The notes beneath the pieces were generated by a model. The model searched no databases and was not told the origin of the DNA. It saw nothing but the letters and a program-made list of their open reading frames with translations. A stretch of DNA of 35,187 nt, taken from positions 1-35,187 of the forward strand of contig JAUSHZ010000023.1 of NCBI GenBank assembly GCA_030648255.1. Reading direction: 5' to 3'. Each line of letters opens with the position of its first letter. The stretch's first letter is position 1. Positions 7,605 to 35,187 of the stretch are shown in pieces. Both the position numbers and the translations under genes were made by a program. This stretch comes from a bacterium. GTDB lineage: Bacteria > Patescibacteriota > Minisyncoccia > Minisyncoccales > CG1-02-41-26.

Positions 7605-10600
7605 ATGAGAAAATTTTTTATACTCATTCTTTGCCTGTTTATTATTTTAACCGGGTTTTTTATTGTTCCAAATGTAAAAGCCGTTGATGGCTCATCTCAA
7701 TCAATGATTGAGAAAATACAACTTTTGTTGACTTCACTAAAAGAGCGGTTAAATATCTTGGGCCAGGAAAATTTATTAGCGCAAATAGCAAGCACCACAA
7801 TAACTGCCGTAGCTACTACAACTTGCGATGTTTCTCCGGCTGATTGCGTGAATAAAAATCTTGTTGCTTATTGGGATATGGATCAGGCCACTGGAACTAC
7901 TGCCATAGATAATTCTGGCAATAACAACACCGGTACTTTGATCGGCGGTGTCAAGATTACCAATGGCGTTTATGGCAATGCCTTACAATTTGACGGGGTG
8001 AATGATTATATAAATGTGGCCGATTCTCCAAGCTTAAGCCCCACAAATGCCGTTACTGTTTCTGGCTGGATAAAAACAAGCAGTATTCAGCCAGGCAGGG
8101 GAGTCATTGTAAAGGGCGGACCAGGCAACAACTATGACTATATGCTCTATTTCTCCAGAACAACGCAGGCAAACGTTAACTTTTACATAAGAAATAGCAG
8201 TGGATCTATTGATACCGCTGGTAGCTATACTTTCAAGTATAATGACAATGCGTGGCATTATTATACGGGAGTTTTTGATGGAGATTGGCTCCGTTTATAC
8301 ATTGACGGAAAATTGGTCTCATCTAAAAATACTGTTCTAACAAATATCAAAAATTCTATAAACCCCCTTACAATCGGCAGGGGTTGGAGCACCTATTTTA
8401 AGGGCTCTATTGACGATGTCCGCGTATATAGCCGAGCTTTATCAGCCAACGAGATCCAGTATCAATATACGCACTTTCTCGCAATAAAGAAATTCATTTT
8501 TACTAATAAAGATACTTTTGATTTTTTCGATATCCCCTATGAAGCTGAAGCATATATTGATGTTAGTAAGAATCATGGAGATGTAACGGATTCAAGCGGC
8601 AACGTGATTCTTTATTCTTATTATGATTTTTATTCTTTTGTAGATTATCAAGGAAAGACTCGTTATATCCTATATGCCGTATTTAAGCCCTCCGCTACCG
8701 CTACAGAGAAAGGGCATATTTATTTGATACCAGGAAACAGGGACGACCTTAGTAATTATATTTATTTAGGTTATACTGAGTACAATATAGAATATTTCAA
8801 TCAAGATACGGCTCAGGCTGATTTCTGGAAGGGTATGATTGAATATCTTGAAAACCCGCTTAAAAGTATTACAACCGGAAATTATGCTCGCGTCATATCA
8901 CAAGTATTAAGTGGTTATTCAGAGTTGCCAGCAGGGGATGGTCAAACTATCAGAATCGCTCACCCGGGAACAATAGGCATTACGGTCCCAGTTATGTTCC
9001 AACGTTTATTAAAAGAATTAGAAAAGAATCCAGGATCAGAAGTAGATATTTATCGGGCAGCGGCTGTATTTGTAAACGGTTATCCCACTGTTTCTTTTAC
9101 TCAAAAAGCGGAAATCAGCCGCTTGATCCGGCAGATATGGGATAAGCTATCCCCTGCGAACCAACGTAGTCTTTTACAGTTAGTTCCAACGACTCCTTCT
9201 GTGAATGAGCTTGGCTTATGGTATCGGGATAAGATGGATGCGTTGTTGACATTGGATTATGAAACTACTTTGCGGTATGGCATCTTTAGCTTAAATAAAA
9301 GATTAACTTTGGATCCGGCCACTAGAAAACAAATCATTCAAAAATTTTTGACCTTTTTGAATAGTCGCCCGCAGATTGACTTTAACCCTATTGATCGCCT
9401 TATTGTTAAAAATGATTCTATTTTATTTAATGCCCGCAAAGAATTTAAAACAGAAATTTTGGCATATTTGAGTAAGGCTTTCAGGCCAGAGATAAATTTT
9501 AATCGCGGGACTATTGCGAAACAAGATTTAGAAAAAGAATTTCAAAATGGAGCCGCGATTTTTGATTGGCTGATGCGAAATGATTACTTAACGCGTATTT
9601 CGGATACAGAAGGCCATTTAAAAGACATTACTCAAGAATTGGAAGCAGCTTTAATGGTAGAATATCCAAATGGTCAGGATCTTAAAATTTTACCCTTTTT
9701 GCGGCAGTTCCAGATGGATGGCTCTTTTGTTTATGCAGCGAACTTAGTGAGGCAGGATTTATCGGCCGCGCTAATCGGTCAGATGGAACAATGGTTGCTT
9801 GACCGGTTTTCTGAAATTAATAGTTTATCCAATAATGACAAAGGGGTTTTATATCATATAATTGCTTCAACCTATTCTTTGCCTTTCAGTCAAGGCCTGA
9901 AAGATCAAATGAAACTTCTTTTTAACAACGCGGATTACTCTTCATGGAGCTTTTCCAATCTATCCGTATTTCTTGGGCGGCTGATTGACTCAAAGTTTGA
10001 TTTATCCGACGCGGATAGAAATCAGTTTTATCAGAAGATTAGCAGGGTCTATTCTGATAAATTCAATAGCAGGGATGGTAGAGGAGATCCCTTGAGTTTT
10101 GGTCAGGGCCACTATGACAATGGGGTATCCTATTTGATTCATTTGCTCAAAAAAGATTCTCTGCTTGCCGCCAGGGCTAAGGATTTATATCCATTATTGG
10201 TAAAATTTAACCCCCAGAAATCAGGGGAAACATCTGGGAATTATCAAAATCGGTTGGCCCGAGTGAAGGCATTATGGTTACAACAAAGGGTGTTTCTATC
10301 TGATTTAAGCTCAGGCCTGGTAGATAAGCCCGAATATTTAGATTATATAATCAGCGGCGCTACGGCGATGAAAGATTATTATGATGTAGTGGGCTTATCT
10401 CCCAATACAGAAGGCGACGCAAGCCAAGGAGTTTTTCGAATTGGAATTAAAGTTTACCCCGAGACATTTTTCCAAATCTTATTGCATGAGGGCGCGCACA
10501 CTTATCATCTGTGGCAAACTTCCGATGTTGAACTTATAGAGGTTCTTGCTGAAACATGGTATTACAGTATGGATTTTAGTAAAAAAACAGTTCTTTCCAC

Positions 10601-23443: not shown

Positions 23444-23536
23444 ATGAAAAGTATAAATCAAAAACAATCTCTTGGTTTGTTGTTAGGCTTGTTAAGCAAA
23501 CCCCAAGCTGGGAAGGTTTTTGGTGTTATTAAATAG
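23444..23536 (+). CDS. Leu-rich attenuator leader peptide (30 aa)
   Basis: This 30-codon frame starts MKSINQKQS and then reads LGLLLGLL (six Leu codons in eight: CTT, TTG, TTG, TTA, TTG, TTA), ending KPQAGKVFGVIK. The Leu run is placed just before a CCC-AAGCT-GGG hairpin, where a stalled ribosome would disrupt it. The GGGAAGG...TTTTTGG region can then pair with downstream AAAAACTTTAAGCCTCCCC as an antiterminator. This is the layout of classical amino-acid attenuators such as leuL. What is sensed (Leu-tRNA shortage or any slow translation there) is inference. The gene controlled, at 23646, is not a recognised Leu gene. Confidence 0.72.
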   Translation: MKSINQKQSLGLLLGLLSKPQAGKVFGVIK

Positions 23537-23562
23537 AAAGATAAATTACTAAAAACTTTAAG

Positions 23563-23588
23563 CCTCCCCAGCGATGGGGAGGTTTTTT
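23563..23588 (+). terminator. Attenuator terminator of Leu-rich leader
   Basis: CCTCCCC-AGCGAT-GGGGAGG followed by TTTTTT. The 5' arm is also the partner of the antiterminator strand within the leader (GGGAAGGTTTTT), so the two structures exclude each other. Confidence 0.88.
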
Positions 23589-23611
23589 GTTTACTTGAAC
23601 ATTAAAAAATC

Positions 23612-23640
23612 AGCGGTAGTCGGACTACCGCTAAAAGGAG
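23612..23640 (+). promoter_or_regulatory. Perfect hairpin abutting the SD of the cassette gene
   Basis: AGCGGTAGT-CGG-ACTACCGCT (23612-23632) ends directly before AAAAGGAG (23633-23640), which lies 5 nt from ATG 23646. It may stabilise the mRNA or tune initiation. Strong SDs are rare in this window and occur mainly in the three cassettes. Confidence 0.7.
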
Positions 23641-23645
23641 AAGCT

Positions 23646-24527
23646 ATGGAAAGAATAATAAGTTTGGGCGGATGGGAAACAATTGTGTCGGACGAATCTC
23701 TGACAGTAAACCCTAGGGGGATGTCAGAAATCGTGAAGAAGTGGGCTAATCTTTTTTCTTACGAGCCCACTTGGGTCCAGAAAGAGTATGAGGTTCCGTC
23801 GCTAATAGTTCGGCTGGACTGCGTAGTACGCGACGGAGAGTTAGGCGTTTATGAGATTGAGGAAAGGCCAGCTGGAATCGGGTTGGCTACTTTGATAAAT
23901 CCAGAATTCAAAGAGATTTTAGTATCTCTTAGGAAAAAGTGGCCATTGTTTGATGTTCTTGCCTCTGGCAAGAGGCGCCCAAATGACGACTATCTTTGGG
24001 CGACAGTAATCTCGTTTAGCGAGGCTGTTGTCGCAAATAGTTCAAACCCGCTCTTAATTCGGGCAGAGCCCGAAGAAAAGGAGTTTTTGCAATTTGAAAA
24101 GAGATCCGTTAGCTCTTTTTCGCGAAAAGGCGACAAGAGCTATGGCATTCACCTTGGACTATGGCGGGAAGTTCCTTCGGAAGAGGATCTTCCTTGGGAT
24201 AAGCCATTTTGTCTTAAGCCTACACAGGGCAGCAAGGCGCGGGATGTAAAAATTTGGCTTCCAAAACATTCAGAGAAAGAGATTTTCTCTAAGGGGGCTT
24301 CGTCGAGAAGCCAAATTTTAAGGGTTCTTAACGAGAGGGGTAAAATGTATTGTCAGGATTTTATTCCTCCTATGCCGTGGGGGGCTATGTGTAGGATATT
24401 AAGGGTATTTTTTGCTTTTGACACAGAGGCAAAAAAGTGGATACCTATGGGTGGGTTTTGGAATGCCCGACCAAATTTATTGGTTCACGGCGCCTCTGAT
24501 AGCGTCTTTGGGCCAGTAATGTTATAA
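23646..24527 (+). CDS. Hypothetical protein of leader-attenuated cassette (293 aa)
   Basis: ATG 23646 is chosen because AAGGAG lies 5 nt upstream; the frame is open back to 23574 but that part is the terminator and hairpin. The 293-residue protein has no signal or membrane segment. Landmarks are YEIEERPAGIGLATL (about 83-97), FCLKPTQGSKARDVKIWLPK (about 193-212), YCQDFIPPMPWGAM and GGFWNARPNLLVHGASDSVFGPV at the end. The LKP..GS...V and late N/R/HG pattern faintly recalls ATP-grasp enzymes, but I would not assign it. Base composition is visibly less AT-rich than neighbours, with many CGN codons and short perfect hairpins, suggesting transfer or selection on RNA structure. A hairpin follows the stop immediately. 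Confidence 0.8.
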   Translation: MERIISLGGWETIVSDESLTVNPRGMSEIVKKWANLFSYEPTWVQKEYEVPSLIVRLDCVVRDGELGVYEIEERPAGIGLATLINPEFKEILVSLRKKWPLFDVLASGKRRPNDDYLWATVISFSEAVVANSSNPLLIRAEPEEKEFLQFEKRSVSSFSRKGDKSYGIHLGLWREVPSEEDLPWDKPFCLKPTQGSKARDVKIWLPKHSEKEIFSKGASSRSQILRVLNERGKMYCQDFIPPMPWGAMCRILRVFFAFDTEAKKWIPMGGFWNARPNLLVHGASDSVFGPVML

Positions 24528-24569
24528 TTTTTGTGGCGTGTTGATTTCTTCAATCACGCGCCACAAAAA
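24528..24569 (+). other. Post-stop hairpin of the first cassette
   Basis: TTTTTGTGGCG.GTTGATT pairs with AATCA.CGCGCCACAAAAA across a short loop. The T-run is on the 5' side and As follow on the 3' side, so it is not a usual intrinsic terminator. The other two cassettes also have a hairpin within 7 nt of the last stop and no T-tract. Confidence 0.7.
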
Positions 24570-24575
24570 ATAGAT

Positions 24576-25694
24576 ATGATTAGCGAAGCAGAAATTTTAA
24601 AAAAATTAATATCATTTAAAACTATCACTGGTAATAAAAGAGAAACTGCCAGAGCTTTTGGCTGGATTGATTTCCAGCTAAGAGGTTTGCCTGTTTTTAT
24701 TAAAAAATATAATTCTGCTGGTTTTGGCTCGTTAATAATTACCACGCAAAAAACAGACAAACCAATTGTTTGGTTAGCTAGCCATCTTGACGTTGTTTCA
24801 GCGACCGAGAAAGATTTTAAGCCTACAGTAAAAAATAATATATTATATGGTCGAGGAGCTTATGATATGAAGTTTGCCTTAGCTTGCTATTTAAAGCTTT
24901 TAAAAGAGCTGGGGGGAAATTTAAAAAAATATAATTTTGGTGTAATGATTACTTCTGATGAGGAAGTGGGGGGGGGAAATGGCGTAAAGTTTTTGTTGGA
25001 AAGTGGTTTTTCTTCGAAGCTCGCTTTTTTGCCTGATGGGGGTAGTAATTGGCAAATTGAGAAAGGCGCAAAAGGCGTTTTGCATTATTCTGTTGAAAGT
25101 ATAGGAAAGTCTGCTCATGCTTCGCGAGCATGGCAAGGAATCAACGCCATAAACCAGCTAATAGAGTTTTTGCTATTGTTACAGAAAGAGTTTCCGAAAG
25201 AGCCATGCAAAGATAAAGATCATTTTCACACTACTTTAAACATTGGTAAAATCGAGGGGGGCAAGACCCCAAATCAAGTGCCTGATTTTGCTAAGGCGAG
25301 CATTGATATTAGATTTCCCCTACATTTAGATAAAAAAATAATTCATGGTTTTATCAAGTCTAGCCAAGCTAAATTCAAAGGAATCAAAATCAAAGAAGAT
25401 ATTTTTGCAGGACCGTTGAAAGTTGATTTACAAAATAAATATCTTAAAACATTTTGTGAAATTCTAAAAAAAGAAAGAAGTGAAGATGTTTCTTTTATTT
25501 TTTCTCACGGCACTTCAGATGGTCGGTATTTTGCCCAGAGAAAAATACCAGTAATTTTGACTCGACCTAAAGGTGGTGGGCTACATAGCGAGGGGGAGTG
25601 GGTTGACTTACAAGATTTAAAAATATTTTACTTGGTTTTGAAAAAGTTTGTAGAGCAAACAACATCACTTCATCGCTACATAGCAGCAAGGTAA
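24576..25694 (+). CDS. M20-family metallopeptidase / deacylase
   Basis: From ATG 24576 the product has 372 residues; upstream in-frame codons fall in the preceding hairpin and are not used. M20 signatures are present: WLASHLDVV with zinc ligand His70, YGRGAYDMKF with the bridging Asp, TSDEEVGG with the catalytic and ligand Glu pair, FLPDGG, and FSHGTSDGRYFA...GGGLHSEGEWV at the end. The central dimerisation domain is also visible (HYSVESIGKSAHASRAWQG). Members include succinyl-diaminopimelate desuccinylase (DapE), acetylornithine deacetylase and di- or tripeptidases. Substrate cannot be fixed; an amino-acid or peptide salvage role is plausible in a reduced genome. Confidence 0.88.
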   Translation: MISEAEILKKLISFKTITGNKRETARAFGWIDFQLRGLPVFIKKYNSAGFGSLIITTQKTDKPIVWLASHLDVVSATEKDFKPTVKNNILYGRGAYDMKFALACYLKLLKELGGNLKKYNFGVMITSDEEVGGGNGVKFLLESGFSSKLAFLPDGGSNWQIEKGAKGVLHYSVESIGKSAHASRAWQGINAINQLIEFLLLLQKEFPKEPCKDKDHFHTTLNIGKIEGGKTPNQVPDFAKASIDIRFPLHLDKKIIHGFIKSSQAKFKGIKIKEDIFAGPLKVDLQNKYLKTFCEILKKERSEDVSFIFSHGTSDGRYFAQRKIPVILTRPKGGGLHSEGEWVDLQDLKIFYLVLKKFVEQTTSLHRYIAAR

Positions 25695-25742: not shown

Positions 25743-25781
25743 CTGAGAGTATTTTCTAATCAACAAATGCGTGTGAAATGA
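25743..25781. repeat. IS left terminal inverted repeat
   Basis: Contains the perfect inner AAATGCGTGTGAAATGA and the outer GAGTATTTTCTAATCAA that recurs at 35048-35064 (with C in place of the first G), next to the second transposase. Confidence 0.75.
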
Positions 25782-27045
25782 AGGAAGTGAATTCCATCAT
25801 TTCTTGGGGAATATGTTTAAAATTTTTAAATAATTCTTGTTTTGTTTTTTGCATTCTTTCCGCAAAATCATTGTCGCTCATCTCGTAAGCAATTTTATCA
25901 AGCTGCTCAAAAGGAATATTATCTTTTAAATACTTTTTCGCATTTTCCAAAGACTTTAATTTCTCGTAAGGTGTTTGGTAATCCTCCTGTCTGTAAATCT
26001 TTTTTTCTTTCCCTTTTTTATCTTTAATTATTGTAGCAAATCCACAAGGTCGGTGGTAGTTTAAATAGACATTAAAATACTGCTTGTAAAACTGGTTAAT
26101 GGCTGGAGCAAAGTTTTTTGGTATGTGGATATACCCCATATGTTTTCTAATCACTGCTCCATTTTTGCATTCAGCTAAAGCATTGTCATTGCAGTGTCTG
26201 GCTCGAGACTTGGTCTGCTGGATTAATAATTTATTCAATAATTTTGCCACCACTTTGTTAATATACTCTGATCCATTATCTGAATGAAAATTAATTATCT
26301 TAAAAGGAAACTGTTCTATTAAATCTGCTAATAATGTTTCAAGGTAATACTCGGATATTCTTTCTACTGCTCCCACTATTTCCCATTGGGTTGTTTCATC
26401 GGTAATATTGATGTGGCAAACGCCCTTTTGCTTGCCATAATCTCCTTGATGAACTGAATCCACTCTTAGAAATCCAGGACTGCCACAGGGCTCTGGTTTT
26501 CTTCTCTCGCCAATTGGAATTTTACTGCTCTGAGTTTTTTTAATCGTTAAACAATGTGATCGGTATTGGTTGGTGGCTCTTAAATTGTAAATGTGGGCAA
26601 TGGATATTTGGCTAATGCTCTGGTACTCTTTTTTGTGAAAAATTTCACATTCTCTTTTTAGTATTGTCTTGGTGGCAGGCCCGGATAATCTTTCTTGAGC
26701 GTTGTCTGTTCTAATGAGCAAAGCAATATCTGTTGGGCTGTACTTTTTCGGGAAACGATGCCTCGCGCTTGAGTTTAAAAATATTCTGCCAAAATCTCTT
26801 TTTCTTTTGATTATTCTATCAGCTTGAGATTGGGACAAGCCCGTCATTTTAACAATGTAATTTCTAACAATGCCCTTATCTTTTTTCTTTAAACTGAAAT
26901 ATTTAAATTTAGTTAAAACATCGTTAATCCATTCATACTTTTCTTTTTTAGAAACTGATTTGAATTTAATGGCTGTGTCAATCTTTAAAAATGCTTGAAT
27001 TTGTGGCACAGTGTAAATGTGTGAGTCGTTCATTGTGATAGTCAT
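25756..27045 (-). CDS. IS transposase with rve (DDE) integrase core
   Basis: About 429 residues from ATG 27045; the frame extends to GTG 27072 and ATG 27033 is another option. The N-terminal part (about 1-110) is helical and Lys-rich, with a helix-turn-helix-like GLSQSQADRIIKRKRDFG. The integrase core has the DDE residues: LRVDSVHQGD, INFHSDNGSEYIN and NALAECKNGAVIRKHMG. FNVYLNYHRPCGFAT follows, typical of IS3/IS481-related enzymes. It appears intact. A diverged relative enters the window at the right edge (NEFAEFMQKEKEELF here against NDFAERMQKTKQELF). Confidence 0.9.
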   Translation of the reverse strand: MTITMNDSHIYTVPQIQAFLKIDTAIKFKSVSKKEKYEWINDVLTKFKYFSLKKKDKGIVRNYIVKMTGLSQSQADRIIKRKRDFGRIFLNSSARHRFPKKYSPTDIALLIRTDNAQERLSGPATKTILKRECEIFHKKEYQSISQISIAHIYNLRATNQYRSHCLTIKKTQSSKIPIGERRKPEPCGSPGFLRVDSVHQGDYGKQKGVCHINITDETTQWEIVGAVERISEYYLETLLADLIEQFPFKIINFHSDNGSEYINKVVAKLLNKLLIQQTKSRARHCNDNALAECKNGAVIRKHMGYIHIPKNFAPAINQFYKQYFNVYLNYHRPCGFATIIKDKKGKEKKIYRQEDYQTPYEKLKSLENAKKYLKDNIPFEQLDKIAYEMSDNDFAERMQKTKQELFKNFKHIPQEMMEFTSFISHAFVD

Positions 27046-27080
27046 ATACCCCAATGATAACGATTCACACACTACCGCAC

Positions 27081-28043: not shown

Positions 28044-28072
28044 TTGACAAAATTTTTTATATTTGCTAAGTT
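28044..28072 (+). promoter_or_regulatory. Promoter of Phe/Tyr leader cassette (TTTGC-type)
   Basis: TTGACA (28044-28049), 17 nt, TAAGTT (28067-28072) with TTTGC just before it, then exactly 12 nt to the leader ATG. Confidence 0.78.
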
Positions 28073-28084
28073 TAAAATAATATT

Positions 28085-28189
28085 ATGAAAGTTGCGAAAA
28101 CACAAACTAATCAAAAAAGAAATTTCTTCTTTTTTTATTTCTTTTATGTCCCAGCGAGGGAGGTTAGTTTGAGTTTTCTAAAGGATTAA
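28085..28189 (+). CDS. Phe/Tyr-rich attenuator leader peptide (34 aa)
   Basis: The 34-codon frame begins MKVAKTQTNQKRN, then reads FFFFYFFY (28124-28147: six Phe and two Tyr codons in a row) and ends VPAREVSLSFLKD. The aromatic run sits just before a TCCC-AGCGA-GGGA hairpin. GAGGGAGGTTAGTTTGAGTT within the 3' part can pair with 28205-28236, whose other partner is the terminator 3' arm. This is the logic of pheL/pheS-type attenuation: starved ribosomes stall on Phe/Tyr codons, the antiterminator forms, and transcription continues. Downstream lies the Phe/Tyr biosynthetic operon, which makes the codon content meaningful. No SD; the mRNA would be nearly leaderless. Confidence 0.82.
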   Translation: MKVAKTQTNQKRNFFFFYFFYVPAREVSLSFLKD

Positions 28190-28221
28190 AAAATAAAAAA
28201 AAGAATTTAGAAACTTCACAC

Positions 28222-28253
28222 CAGCTTCTCTCCTCTTGAGAGGGCTGTTTTTG
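28222..28253 (+). terminator. Attenuator terminator of Phe/Tyr leader
   Basis: CAGCTTCTCTC-CTCTT-GAGAGGGCTG (10 pairs with one bulge) followed by TTTTTG. The 5' arm overlaps the antiterminator partner strand. Confidence 0.82.
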
Positions 28254-28387
28254 TTTCAGCACATTTCTTAGTTCTTTGTTAATTATAACGAGTCGAGCCG
28301 ACTAATTTGTTTCTAAAATAAATTTGGAGCCAAACTGGTTTGCTTGACTTTAGTTTTCTATTTTTTATTTAAAGGGGGTGAATTTAA

Positions 28388-28540
28388 GTGGGTAAGACAA
28401 GTAGCCTATGCGAGTACTACGTGCTACTTTCTGGCGAAAGCTTTGAGAAGAATCAGGCCTTGGAGTATGCTCCAAGGTCTCGAAAAGAAGCGGCTGAACG
28501 CCGCAAAAAGAGAAGGGGGTCCATCCGTAGACGACGATGA
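28388..28540 (+). CDS. Small Arg-rich protein of the Phe/Tyr leader cassette (50 aa)
   Basis: GTG 28388 is preceded at 7 nt by AAAGGGGGTG (28371-28380), an unusually strong SD for this window. The product has 50 residues, neutral at first (MGKTSSLCEYYVLLSGESF) and then very basic, ending RRKKRRGSIRRRR. Another frame here is open to 28565 but has no start near the SD. The coding DNA contains serial perfect hairpins (AGTAGC/GCTACT; CCTTGGAG-TATG-CTCCAAGG; GCGGC-TGAAC-GCCGC), so part of the conservation may be at RNA level and a structured RNA instead of a protein is possible. The third cassette (34659-34990) has the same arrangement. Confidence 0.55.
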   Translation: MGKTSSLCEYYVLLSGESFEKNQALEYAPRSRKEAAERRKKRRGSIRRRR

Positions 28541-34403: not shown

Positions 34404-34431
34404 TTGACAACAAATTTTATTTTGCTAATAT
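34404..34431 (+). promoter_or_regulatory. Promoter of third leader cassette (TTTGC-type)
   Basis: TTGACA (34404-34409), 16 nt, TAATAT (34426-34431) preceded by TTTGC, then exactly 12 nt to the ATG, as in the other two cassettes. Confidence 0.78.
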
Positions 34432-34443
34432 AAAAACATAAAT

Positions 34444-34542
34444 ATGAAATCTTTAACTCGAGCTAATTTCCAATACACCAAATGGACTATTTGTTCCCCA
34501 TTATGCGGGAAGGAGATTAGTTTGAGCTTTGAAAATAAATAA
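34444..34542 (+). CDS. Attenuator leader peptide of third cassette (32 aa)
   Basis: The 32-codon frame starts MKSLTRANFQYTKWTICSP and ends LCGKEISLSFENK; the end is like that of the Phe/Tyr leader (REVSLSFLKD). A single Trp codon precedes TTCCC-CATTATGC-GGGAA by a few codons, where stalling would free GGGAAGGAGATTAGTTTGAG to pair with CTTCAAACTAGCCCCCTTCC downstream. No amino acid is strongly enriched; Trp, Cys or Thr are candidates, or general slowing of the ribosome. The antiterminator pairing is the clearest of the three cassettes. Confidence 0.72.
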   Translation: MKSLTRANFQYTKWTICSPLCGKEISLSFENK

Positions 34543-34565
34543 ACAAAACTTTAAAACTTCAAACT

Positions 34566-34607
34566 AGCCCCCTTCCTTTGTACAGAGGAAGGGGGCTTTA
34601 GCTTTTT
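34566..34607 (+). terminator. Attenuator terminator of third cassette
   Basis: Perfect 12-bp stem AGCCCCCTTCCT / AGGAAGGGGGCT with an 8-nt loop, followed by TTAGCTTTTT. Its 5' arm is also complementary to GGGAAGG in the leader. Confidence 0.92.
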
Positions 34608-34658
34608 AGCGTTTGATGTTTAAAAATTAAATTAATTGAATTGAAAGGGGTGATTACC

Positions 34659-34781
34659 TTGGGAAATCCAAGACCTACGTGGCAATGTGCTTCTTGTGGC
34701 AGATCGAACAAGGACAATGTTAGATTTTGTAAGTGTGGACTATCAAAGCATGATTCTCGAAACAAAAGAATAAGGAGATAA
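34659..34781 (+). CDS. Small zinc-ribbon protein (40 aa)
   Basis: TTG 34659 follows AAAGGGGTGA (34645-34653) at good SD distance. The 40-residue product has WQCASCGRSNKDNV and RFCKCGLSKH, i.e. C-x2-C-x10-C-x-C. Trp before the first Cys and the Asn spacer recall RanBP2-type zinc ribbons, though the last pair is CxC rather than CxxC. The C terminus is basic (RNKRIRR). Nucleic-acid or ribosome binding is inferred. It ends 2 nt before the next small gene. Confidence 0.68.
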   Translation: MGNPRPTWQCASCGRSNKDNVRFCKCGLSKHDSRNKRIRR

Positions 34782-34783
34782 AA

Positions 34784-34990
34784 ATGCCAGATAAGAAAAG
34801 TAGTATAAAAAAAAGGAATCAAGAAAAGATTAACCAAGAAAAGAAGGAAAAACAAGAAAAGGGGAGTAAAGATGTTGCTAGCCCTAGGCTTCAGAGTAGA
34901 AAAACAGTAAAAAAACACGGAAAGACGTATGTACGTCTTGGTAGCGGGAAGCTTGCACCCTTTGTTGCGCGAACTACTGCGCAAGGATAA
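34784..34990 (+). CDS. Small Lys-rich protein (68 aa)
   Basis: ATG 34784 has AAGGAG 6 nt upstream, inside the zinc-ribbon gene end. The first 35 residues are extremely Lys/Glu/Gln-rich and probably a charged helix. The rest, ending GKTYVRLGSGKLAPFVARTT, looks ordered. I do not recognise a family. The 3' coding part contains perfect hairpins (AAGACGT-ATGT-ACGTCTT and TTGCGC/GCGCAA), as in the other cassette genes. Likely works with the zinc-ribbon protein. Confidence 0.68.
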   Translation: MPDKKSSIKKRNQEKINQEKKEKQEKGSKDVASPRLQSRKTVKKHGKTYVRLGSGKLAPFVARTTAQG

Positions 34991-34997
34991 GCTATCA

Positions 34998-35029
34998 GAA
35001 AGGCTTCTGGAATATTTCAGAAGCCTTTC
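34998..35029 (+). other. Strong hairpin after the third cassette
   Basis: GAAAGGCTTCTG / CAGAAGCCTTTC, 12 perfect pairs with an 8-nt loop, 7 nt after the stop. No T-tract follows, as at the ends of the other two cassettes. Confidence 0.75.
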
Positions 35030-35055: not shown

Positions 35056-35187
35056 CTAATCAATAAAGGACCCTGAAATTTCAGCCATTGTTTTACTGGA
35101 AAAAATGGTTGGGAATTGAAGCTTTTTGTTTTTAAAACTATTAAATAATTCTTCTTTTTCTTTCTGCATAAATTCTGCAAATTCGTT
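35056..35187 (-). CDS. Partial transposase of a second, diverged IS copy
   Basis: Read on the minus strand, the last 43 codons before the TAG at 35056-35058 begin NEFAEFMQKEKEELFNSFKN and end FID. They align with the C terminus of the transposase encoded at 25756-27045 (NDFAERMQKTKQELFKNFKH, ending FVD). The bases at the stop, AGTATTTTCTAATCAA, also match the first element's left end. The rest of the gene lies beyond the window, so completeness is unknown. It sits about 12-20 nt past the third cassette's final hairpin. Confidence 0.85.
   Translation of the reverse strand, partial: NEFAEFMQKEKEELFNSFKNKKLQFPTIFSSKTMAEISGSFID

Follow-up and report, generated by a model that had tools for sequence, protein, structure and literature searches.

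A 40-residue zinc-finger protein and a 68-residue Lys-rich protein are most probably encoded by a single two-gene transcript (cassette 3) under a ribosome-mediated transcription attenuator, whose RNA family is shared with aromatic amino-acid genes. The DNA analysed here (the window, 35,187 nucleotides) is an entire contig (G000:C5) within an 846,593-base genome. By FtsI, its named relatives are MAGs of Candidatus Paceibacterota at 69-73% identity; one further Paceibacterota MAG and one of Candidatus Gribaldobacteria follow at about 50%. Two other genomes of the genus, G001 and G002, were used for comparison with the genome of the window (G000). RNA homology, covariation, mutual exclusivity, position dependence and gene starts were all computed here; a starvation response is the role that we would assign to the zinc-finger and Lys-rich proteins.

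Attenuator 3 is complete at 34404-34607, with promoter, leader peptide, antiterminator and terminator, and begins about 20 bases downstream of the end of the TyrA/PheA gene (34382). The parts of the cassette are as follows.

34404-34431, + strand: promoter, TTGACA, 16 bases, TAATAT with a TG extension (10 of 12 matches; among the two best of 29 listed)
34444-34542, + strand: near-leaderless leader peptide of 32 codons, MKSLTRANFQYTKWTICSPLCGKEISLSFENK (related leaders in G001 and G002)
34457-34471, + strand: region 1, pairing with region 2 (CTCGAGCTAATTTCC) (folding; 81.5% of cells paired in 8 sequences)
34468-34494, + strand: control codons F9-C17 (FQYTKWTIC), the furthest ribosome positions at which region 2 stays free (simulation)
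34507-34533, + strand: region 2, 5' arm of the antiterminator, holding the family core GTTTGAG (folding, covariation, R2 model)
34550-34577, + strand: region 3, 3' arm of the antiterminator, overlapping the 5' arm of the terminator (folding, covariation, R2 model)
34566-34607, + strand: intrinsic terminator and T-rich tail (terminator scan, covariation)
34644-34653, + strand: extended Shine-Dalgarno AAAGGGGTGA of the zinc-finger gene (-16.9 kcal/mol)
34659-34781, + strand: 40-aa zinc-finger protein, TTG start, W-x-C-x2-C-x3-N-x6-C-x-C (ORF, alignment with a relative, profile matches)
34784-34990, + strand: 68-aa Lys-rich protein, Shine-Dalgarno AAGGAGAT (-8.7 kcal/mol), ATG two bases past the previous stop
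34999-35029, + strand: hairpin after the Lys-rich gene with a weak T tail (sequence only)

The leader ATG sits 12 bases past the -10 hexamer and lacks a Shine-Dalgarno (+1.6 kcal/mol), so the leader mRNA would be almost leaderless. The earlier note mentioned neither this near-leaderless start nor the overlap of the last part of the leader ORF with region 2. TTGAC and ATG lie 35-42 bases apart in most of the family's leaders; two order-level leaders and attenuator 1 have no TTGAC, and the spacing is 45 and 50 bases in two f1 leaders. The terminator is formed by AGCCCCCTTCCTTT-GTAC-AGAGGAAGGGGGCT (34566-34597) followed by TTTAGCTTTTT, and the scan gave 14 pairs, of which the 12 bp described in the earlier note are the core. 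The antiterminator pairs as that note had proposed, GGAAGG with CCTTCC and TAGTTTGA with TCAAACTA, joining 34507-34533 to 34550-34577. As the arms of the two structures overlap, they cannot coexist, in agreement with the claimed mutual exclusivity. The leader RNA folds at -63.3 kcal/mol vs -37.6 +/- 3.9 kcal/mol in shuffles (z -6.6; 0 of 200 as good).

The switch was then simulated by folding the transcript, ended at the terminator loop, with a ribosome placed on each codon in turn. The ribosome was taken to cover 12 bases upstream and 16 downstream of the first P-site base; this footprint and the transcription start are both assumed. In cassette 3, region 2 held the terminator arm (0.68-0.72) until C17 was in the A site, and the arm was held less (0.12-0.31) with the ribosome at S18 to F29. 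Attenuator 3 thus combines mutually exclusive structures with a leader ORF, predicted to be translated, in which the control codons are rightly placed. The switch also fell at or near the control run in nine other attenuators folded with a ribosome. It came after I15 in G001c3 and after T14 in G002c3, where the aromatic run ends in G000c2, G047, G091, G217 and G207, inside the Phe run in G011a, and several codons past YFF (S19) in G011b; in attenuator 1 the simulated switch followed the Leu run.

On this model, RNA polymerase would start at the extended -10 promoter and a ribosome would load on the near-leaderless leader. A ribosome running through codons 18-29 would cover region 2, leaving region 3 to pair with region 4, and transcription would stop at 34597-34607. 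A stall at or before codon 17 would allow pairing of regions 2 and 3, no terminator would form, and the zinc-finger and Lys-rich genes would be transcribed. Stalls at every codon up to 17 likewise antiterminate in the model, which counts against this explanation. With no ribosome on the RNA, antitermination of attenuator 3 is 0.46 in the model; this and the lack of double changes in the stem of regions 1 and 2 make its basal control uncertain. Past the leader stop codon region 2 is free again, so timing would matter.

To place this RNA among its relatives, two models were used. Model R1, made from 16 sequences of family f1 with attenuator 3 included, matched 53 of the 247 genomes of the order (E <= 0.01) and, at class level, nine of 275 (E <= 0.001), these latter matches being weak (E 7e-6 to 6e-4). 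Among the R1 matches, 23 loci outside the model were inspected individually, and all except G013 contig 28 carry a leader rich in F/Y/W directly before region 2; 20 of these 22 leaders were counted, one shares a counted peptide and one was judged by eye. The first cargo of the 23 loci was a DAHP synthase in four (called by Pfam for one and by N-terminal likeness for the others), a prephenate dehydratase in two, a stand-alone FXD-like protein in five (two above the Pfam cut-off), a small Cys-knuckle protein in three (G047, G107 and G013) and another orphan in nine. The family RNA precedes small orphan proteins in the genus of the window and in many relatives.

Model R2 was made from 19 of these 23 loci, none of them from family f1; G179, which is poorly in register, and G205, G208 and G013, which are not yet placed, were left out. 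RNAalifold predicted the antiterminator de novo from the stretch up to region 3 of these 19 sequences, in which 93.5% of 415 cells were paired. Double changes were found at 12 pairs and in 47 cells, vs 6.8 and 19.6 in shuffles and 5-17 cells in slid controls. When the window was scanned with R2, 34507-34606 ranked first (56.3 bits, E 6.3e-11), followed by attenuator 2 at 28154. Antiterminator and terminator also covary in eight f1 sequences of cassettes 2 and 3, and the stem of regions 1 and 2 has no double changes in this set. Folding, covariation in the R2 set, R2 homology and the ribosome-position simulation strongly support the translation-sensing attenuation claimed in the earlier note. 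What the note did not see is that this RNA is one of a family of attenuators of amino-acid biosynthesis whose cargo has been exchanged. Minus-strand matches of R1 and R2 at the same places were set aside, being in our reading the near-palindromic antiterminator read backwards.

Two further attenuators lie upstream in the window.

23444-23592, + strand: attenuator 1, Leu leader MKSINQKQSLGLLLGLLSKPQAGKVFGVIK (23444-23536) and terminator (folding; weak R2 match, E 6e-4)
28044-28258, + strand: attenuator 2, promoter, Phe/Tyr leader MKVAKTQTNQKRNFFFFYFFYVPAREVSLSFLKD (28085-28189), antiterminator and terminator (R2 E 7.9e-10)
28388-28540, + strand: 50-aa Arg-rich ORF, GTG start, first of cassette 2 (best Shine-Dalgarno of 283 GTG)

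The Arg-rich protein, correctly placed by the earlier note at the head of the second cassette after attenuator 2, has no Pfam match and is followed by an aroA-aroK-aroC-transaminase-CM-TyrA/PheA operon. The leader of attenuator 2 carries FFFFYFFY, and leaders 2 and 3 end alike, E[VI]SLSF, in the part that encodes region 2. Attenuator 1 (cassette 23444-25694) precedes a 317-aa protein without a Pfam match and an M20 peptidase. Further relatives have leuA downstream of the Leu leader, and downstream of the Phe leader they have either DAHP synthase or a 63-aa ORF and aroA. We identified leuA (E <= 1e-60) in eight of 334 class genomes, with a clear Leu or Ile leader and terminator upstream in two, a possible one in one and none seen in five. 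An Ile-rich leader MTLINKQQNIIISIIISRGILSCRSV with a terminator lies upstream of a leuA-like gene in G436 (L066).

In G001 and G002 the interval from ftsI to tRNA-Glu contains all three attenuators in a row. Their cassette 1 carries a protein of 148-158 aa (42% identical in the two genomes), cassette 2 carries two small proteins (35%, E 9e-14, and 44%, E 4e-9), and cassette 3 has a different cargo in each of the three genomes of the genus; in G001 this includes a 60-aa Lys-rich protein and a 59-aa CxC/CxxC protein. Genera g1, g7, g10, g12 and g16 have a variable island of such cassettes between ftsI and tRNA-Glu, with examples at L051 9569-12480, L052 4379-6731, L101, L104 and L110; no attenuator cassettes were seen downstream of ftsI in several other genera of the family. 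In the window, a transposase gene (IS481/IS3-like by NCBIfam) lies at 25756-27072, and a similar copy at 35056-35187 is cut off by the contig end, hiding from view what follows cassette 3.

The signal sensed by cassette 3 was approached through its control codons. The control stretch FQYTKWTIC is mixed, with three F/Y/W in nine residues (binomial p 0.04) and no aromatic run, and the counterparts G001c3, G002c3 and G011b have two or three in nine. At least five F/W/Y in nine residues are present in 25 of the 30 leaders of the RNA family, the five below that count being the four of cassette 3 type and G109. Because of this mixed stretch the signal of cassette 3 is less certain; it would be a shortage of aromatic or of general aminoacyl-tRNA, and we consider aromatic tRNA shortage, by descent, the likeliest, ranking it above a general translation sensor. 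Such a sensor would respond to general slowing of translation, caused by lack of several amino acids or by a ribosome inhibitor, and the small proteins would be translation-stress factors. This reading is a serious alternative though not the one we favour: it is consistent with the mixed control stretch in all four leaders of cassette 3 type and with class-level relatives of the RNA that have mixed non-aromatic leaders, such as NNRKNAQQPQNPRRK and QTTRTCGKHCAKRHERF. However, F, Y and W are all retained in leader 3 of G000 and G001, and F/Y in that of G002, and most of the RNA family is aromatic, the class-level matches being the weak ones given above. Control codons are cognate to the operon product in cassette 2 (Phe/Tyr run, aro operon) and not in cassette 3 (mixed control stretch, non-biosynthetic cargo); cassette 3 therefore works like an amino-acid attenuator and is not filed under a known operon. 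Cognate control codons are a trait of amino-acid operons, not of the attenuation mechanism as such.

Turning to the cargo, TTG 34659 has the strongest Shine-Dalgarno among the 951 TTG triplets of the window, which supports a start at this site. The 40-residue CxxC...CxC protein with a TTG start described in the earlier note, whose ORF is present, looks like a real gene on sequence grounds. The note would have taken a lack of homologues with conserved Cys residues as refuting its reading; we identified a relative that has them, a 63-aa protein in G047, a genome of another family, behind an attenuator of the same RNA family. This relative, which was reached through the RNA and not through a protein search, has the layout W-x-C-x2-C-x3-N-x6-C-x2-C and shares W, four Cys, SNK, CK, CG, K and D with the 40-aa protein. 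Of 5000 shuffles that kept the Cys in place, one (1 of 5000) scored as well as the alignment; when Trp was kept in place too, 25 of 5000 did. In a profile search of 247 genomes, strong matches were confined to G000 and G047, and 27 more were weak (best E 5.6e-4). A sequence look-up with the 40-aa protein alone was discarded: its matches in three of 100 genomes (E <= 0.01) were the window itself and two short matches in long frames.

Profile matches in the PDB were mostly RanBP2-type or similar fingers, with chains of RBM5, Nup153, ArnA and RNF31 among the matches, and profile A6 against structures gave ArnA (E 0.0016), RNF31 (0.006) and RBM5 (0.008). The RanBP2 finger consensus is W-x-C-x(2-4)-C-x3-N-x6-C-x2-C. 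The 40-aa protein has the W-x-C-x2-C-x3-N-x6-C layout in common with RanBP2-type fingers (RBM5, RBM10, Nup153, RNF31), whereas its second knuckle is C-x-C, one residue short of the consensus; the G047 relative, with C-x2-C, fits it. Pfam zf-RanBP matched neither the 40-aa protein (E <= 1) nor the G047 relative (E <= 0.1), and the single-sequence AlphaFold2 model of the 40-aa protein (pLDDT 64.7, pTM 0.26) was too poor for a fold search. The finger probably binds a nucleic acid or a protein partner; some RanBP2-like fingers among the profile matches bind ubiquitin, not RNA. Overall, the observations of the earlier note were borne out and its interpretation in part: attenuation by translation sensing stood, and the putative role of the products as ribosome- or RNA-binding stress factors is compatible with a RanBP2-like finger.

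The ORF of the 68-residue Lys-rich protein is likewise present as described, and its translation is plausible. It has no secure relative; comparison of K68 with K60 gave E 0.26, and 58 of 3000 shuffles were as good. Pfam names obtained for the small proteins (TbpB_A, U3_snoRNA_assoc, FtrD-like and others; E 0.004-0.09) were below cut-off and were rejected, as was the idea that the genus derived its small proteins of cassettes 2 and 3 from DAHP-synthase FXD domains by divergence, which hhalign did not support (probability 0.1 and 0.8%).

The changing cargo raises the question of a relic, that is, an attenuator left behind after loss of an aromatic operon, with the small ORFs as neutral fillers or decaying fragments. 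The cargo differences of cassette 3 among the three genus genomes would fit this, as would the G011 attenuator followed only by a 9-codon ORF, the Leu attenuator that persists in G000 and G001 although leuA was found in neither (E <= 1e-60), and the lone DAHP-synthase FXD domains of G091 and G109, which could be remnants. We nevertheless consider a relic improbable, given that the RNA pairing is kept through compensatory changes, the small ORFs of the window retain extended Shine-Dalgarnos, the small proteins of cassette 2 are conserved between G001 and G002, and the finger retains Cys and other residues across families. It is very improbable that attenuator 3 is merely the terminator of the upstream aro operon with a chance leader-like ORF, as its position directly after the TyrA/PheA gene might suggest, since it has its own promoter, a conserved leader and antiterminator covariation, and the unit is found after other genes in G001, G002 and G011. 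A ligand-binding riboswitch or T-box with an incidental leader ORF, which the strong structure with alternative folds might suggest, is equally hard to credit, as no Rfam family, leader or T-box, was matched at gathering score (best PyrG_leader, 34.2 bits vs a cut-off of 65) and the control residues sit where masking of region 2 begins in the folded attenuators.

Ribosome-mediated attenuators are known from the trp, phe, his and leu leaders of enterobacteria. Their mechanism in amino-acid operons has been described (PMC1183508). Like them, the attenuators studied here have a leader peptide with control codons and an exclusive antiterminator and terminator, and relatives stand ahead of aromatic biosynthetic genes. 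Unlike them, cassette 3 has a near-leaderless start, a stop codon after region 2, mixed control codons, two small proteins as cargo and no Rfam match, and the C-terminus of its leader is conserved because it encodes region 2. According to PMC11255114, anti-TRAP (rtpA/yczA) of Bacillus subtilis is a small zinc protein made through antitermination when charged aromatic tRNA is short, and the reference list also cites a leader peptide for anti-TRAP. The likeness to cassette 3 lies in a small zinc protein under antitermination on shortage of charged aromatic tRNA, whereas the transcription step uses a T-box there and a leader attenuator here. The zinc domain also differs, with no match of the 40-aa protein to the anti-TRAP domain PF15777 (E <= 1); a 59-aa protein of G107 is nearer (E 0.02, below cut-off). 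No paper describing leader-peptide attenuation in Patescibacteria (CPR, Parcubacteria, Paceibacteria) was found in the portions of the literature searched.

Most Patescibacteria have not been cultured, and this strongly covarying RNA family would mark the genes that they switch on as translation stalls. Small proteins that starvation would induce, several of them with zinc knuckles, can thereby be listed for testing in organisms whose physiology is otherwise difficult to study. More speculatively, and with considerable doubt, we propose a modular attenuator chassis of Paceibacterota with the core GGTTnGTTTGAG ... TTCAnACnAGCC, in which exchanged control codons and cargo would couple a chosen amino-acid shortage or slow translation to fast-changing small proteins in uncultured, probably host-dependent bacteria; cassette 3 would then be a general translation-stress sensor inducing a RanBP2-like finger and a Lys-rich protein that act on RNA or the ribosome.

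Several additional loci were recorded. A Phe-leader profile search of the class matched 121 of 383 genomes (E <= 0.05) and was real only in the main matches of G000 and G001; 13 of 18 weak loci inspected were one recurring coding sequence, which we take to be alanyl-tRNA synthetase, and a Phe-leader scan of the genome contigs confirmed nothing. A gene for a lone DAHP-synthase FXD domain (PF18152 above cut-off) stands behind an aromatic attenuator in G091 (L122 1626-1889) and G109 (L142 reverse 1605-1865). The 59-aa CxxCxGxG protein of G107, DnaJ-like, follows a Phe leader (L143 1611-1790), and in G013 contig 28 (L138 reverse 1301-1699) a VWWLL leader and the family RNA core precede a 67-aa ORF with two CxxC knuckles. 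The class-level matches of family f72 (L165, L166, L168, L172) have non-aromatic leaders rich in Q/N/P/R or T/C/H/R, and the kinase behind one of them is presumably ProB-like. In the tandem attenuators of G017 (L110 808-2300), the second leader (MGLVLFWGVGLSFVK, MEMIFQKYFWFYYPYFLCRKESV) follows or overlaps the first terminator. An HMGL-like aldolase, an Asp/Glu racemase and a radical SAM protein are among their cargo. A cyclodipeptide synthase was considered as the identity of a 243-aa protein in this genome and was dropped for want of Pfam support. By eye, a second conserved stretch, GACTAATTTGTTTCT ... GGAGCCA ... TGGT, lies between terminator 2 and the small ORF (28291-28352; L053 12113-12172). 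Also by eye, the first gene downstream of the Leu attenuator has a small hairpin immediately ahead of its Shine-Dalgarno in four genomes, with a sequence that differs between them (window ~23610-23636, L051 ~10064-10090, L053 ~10190-10208, L054 ~9937-9955).
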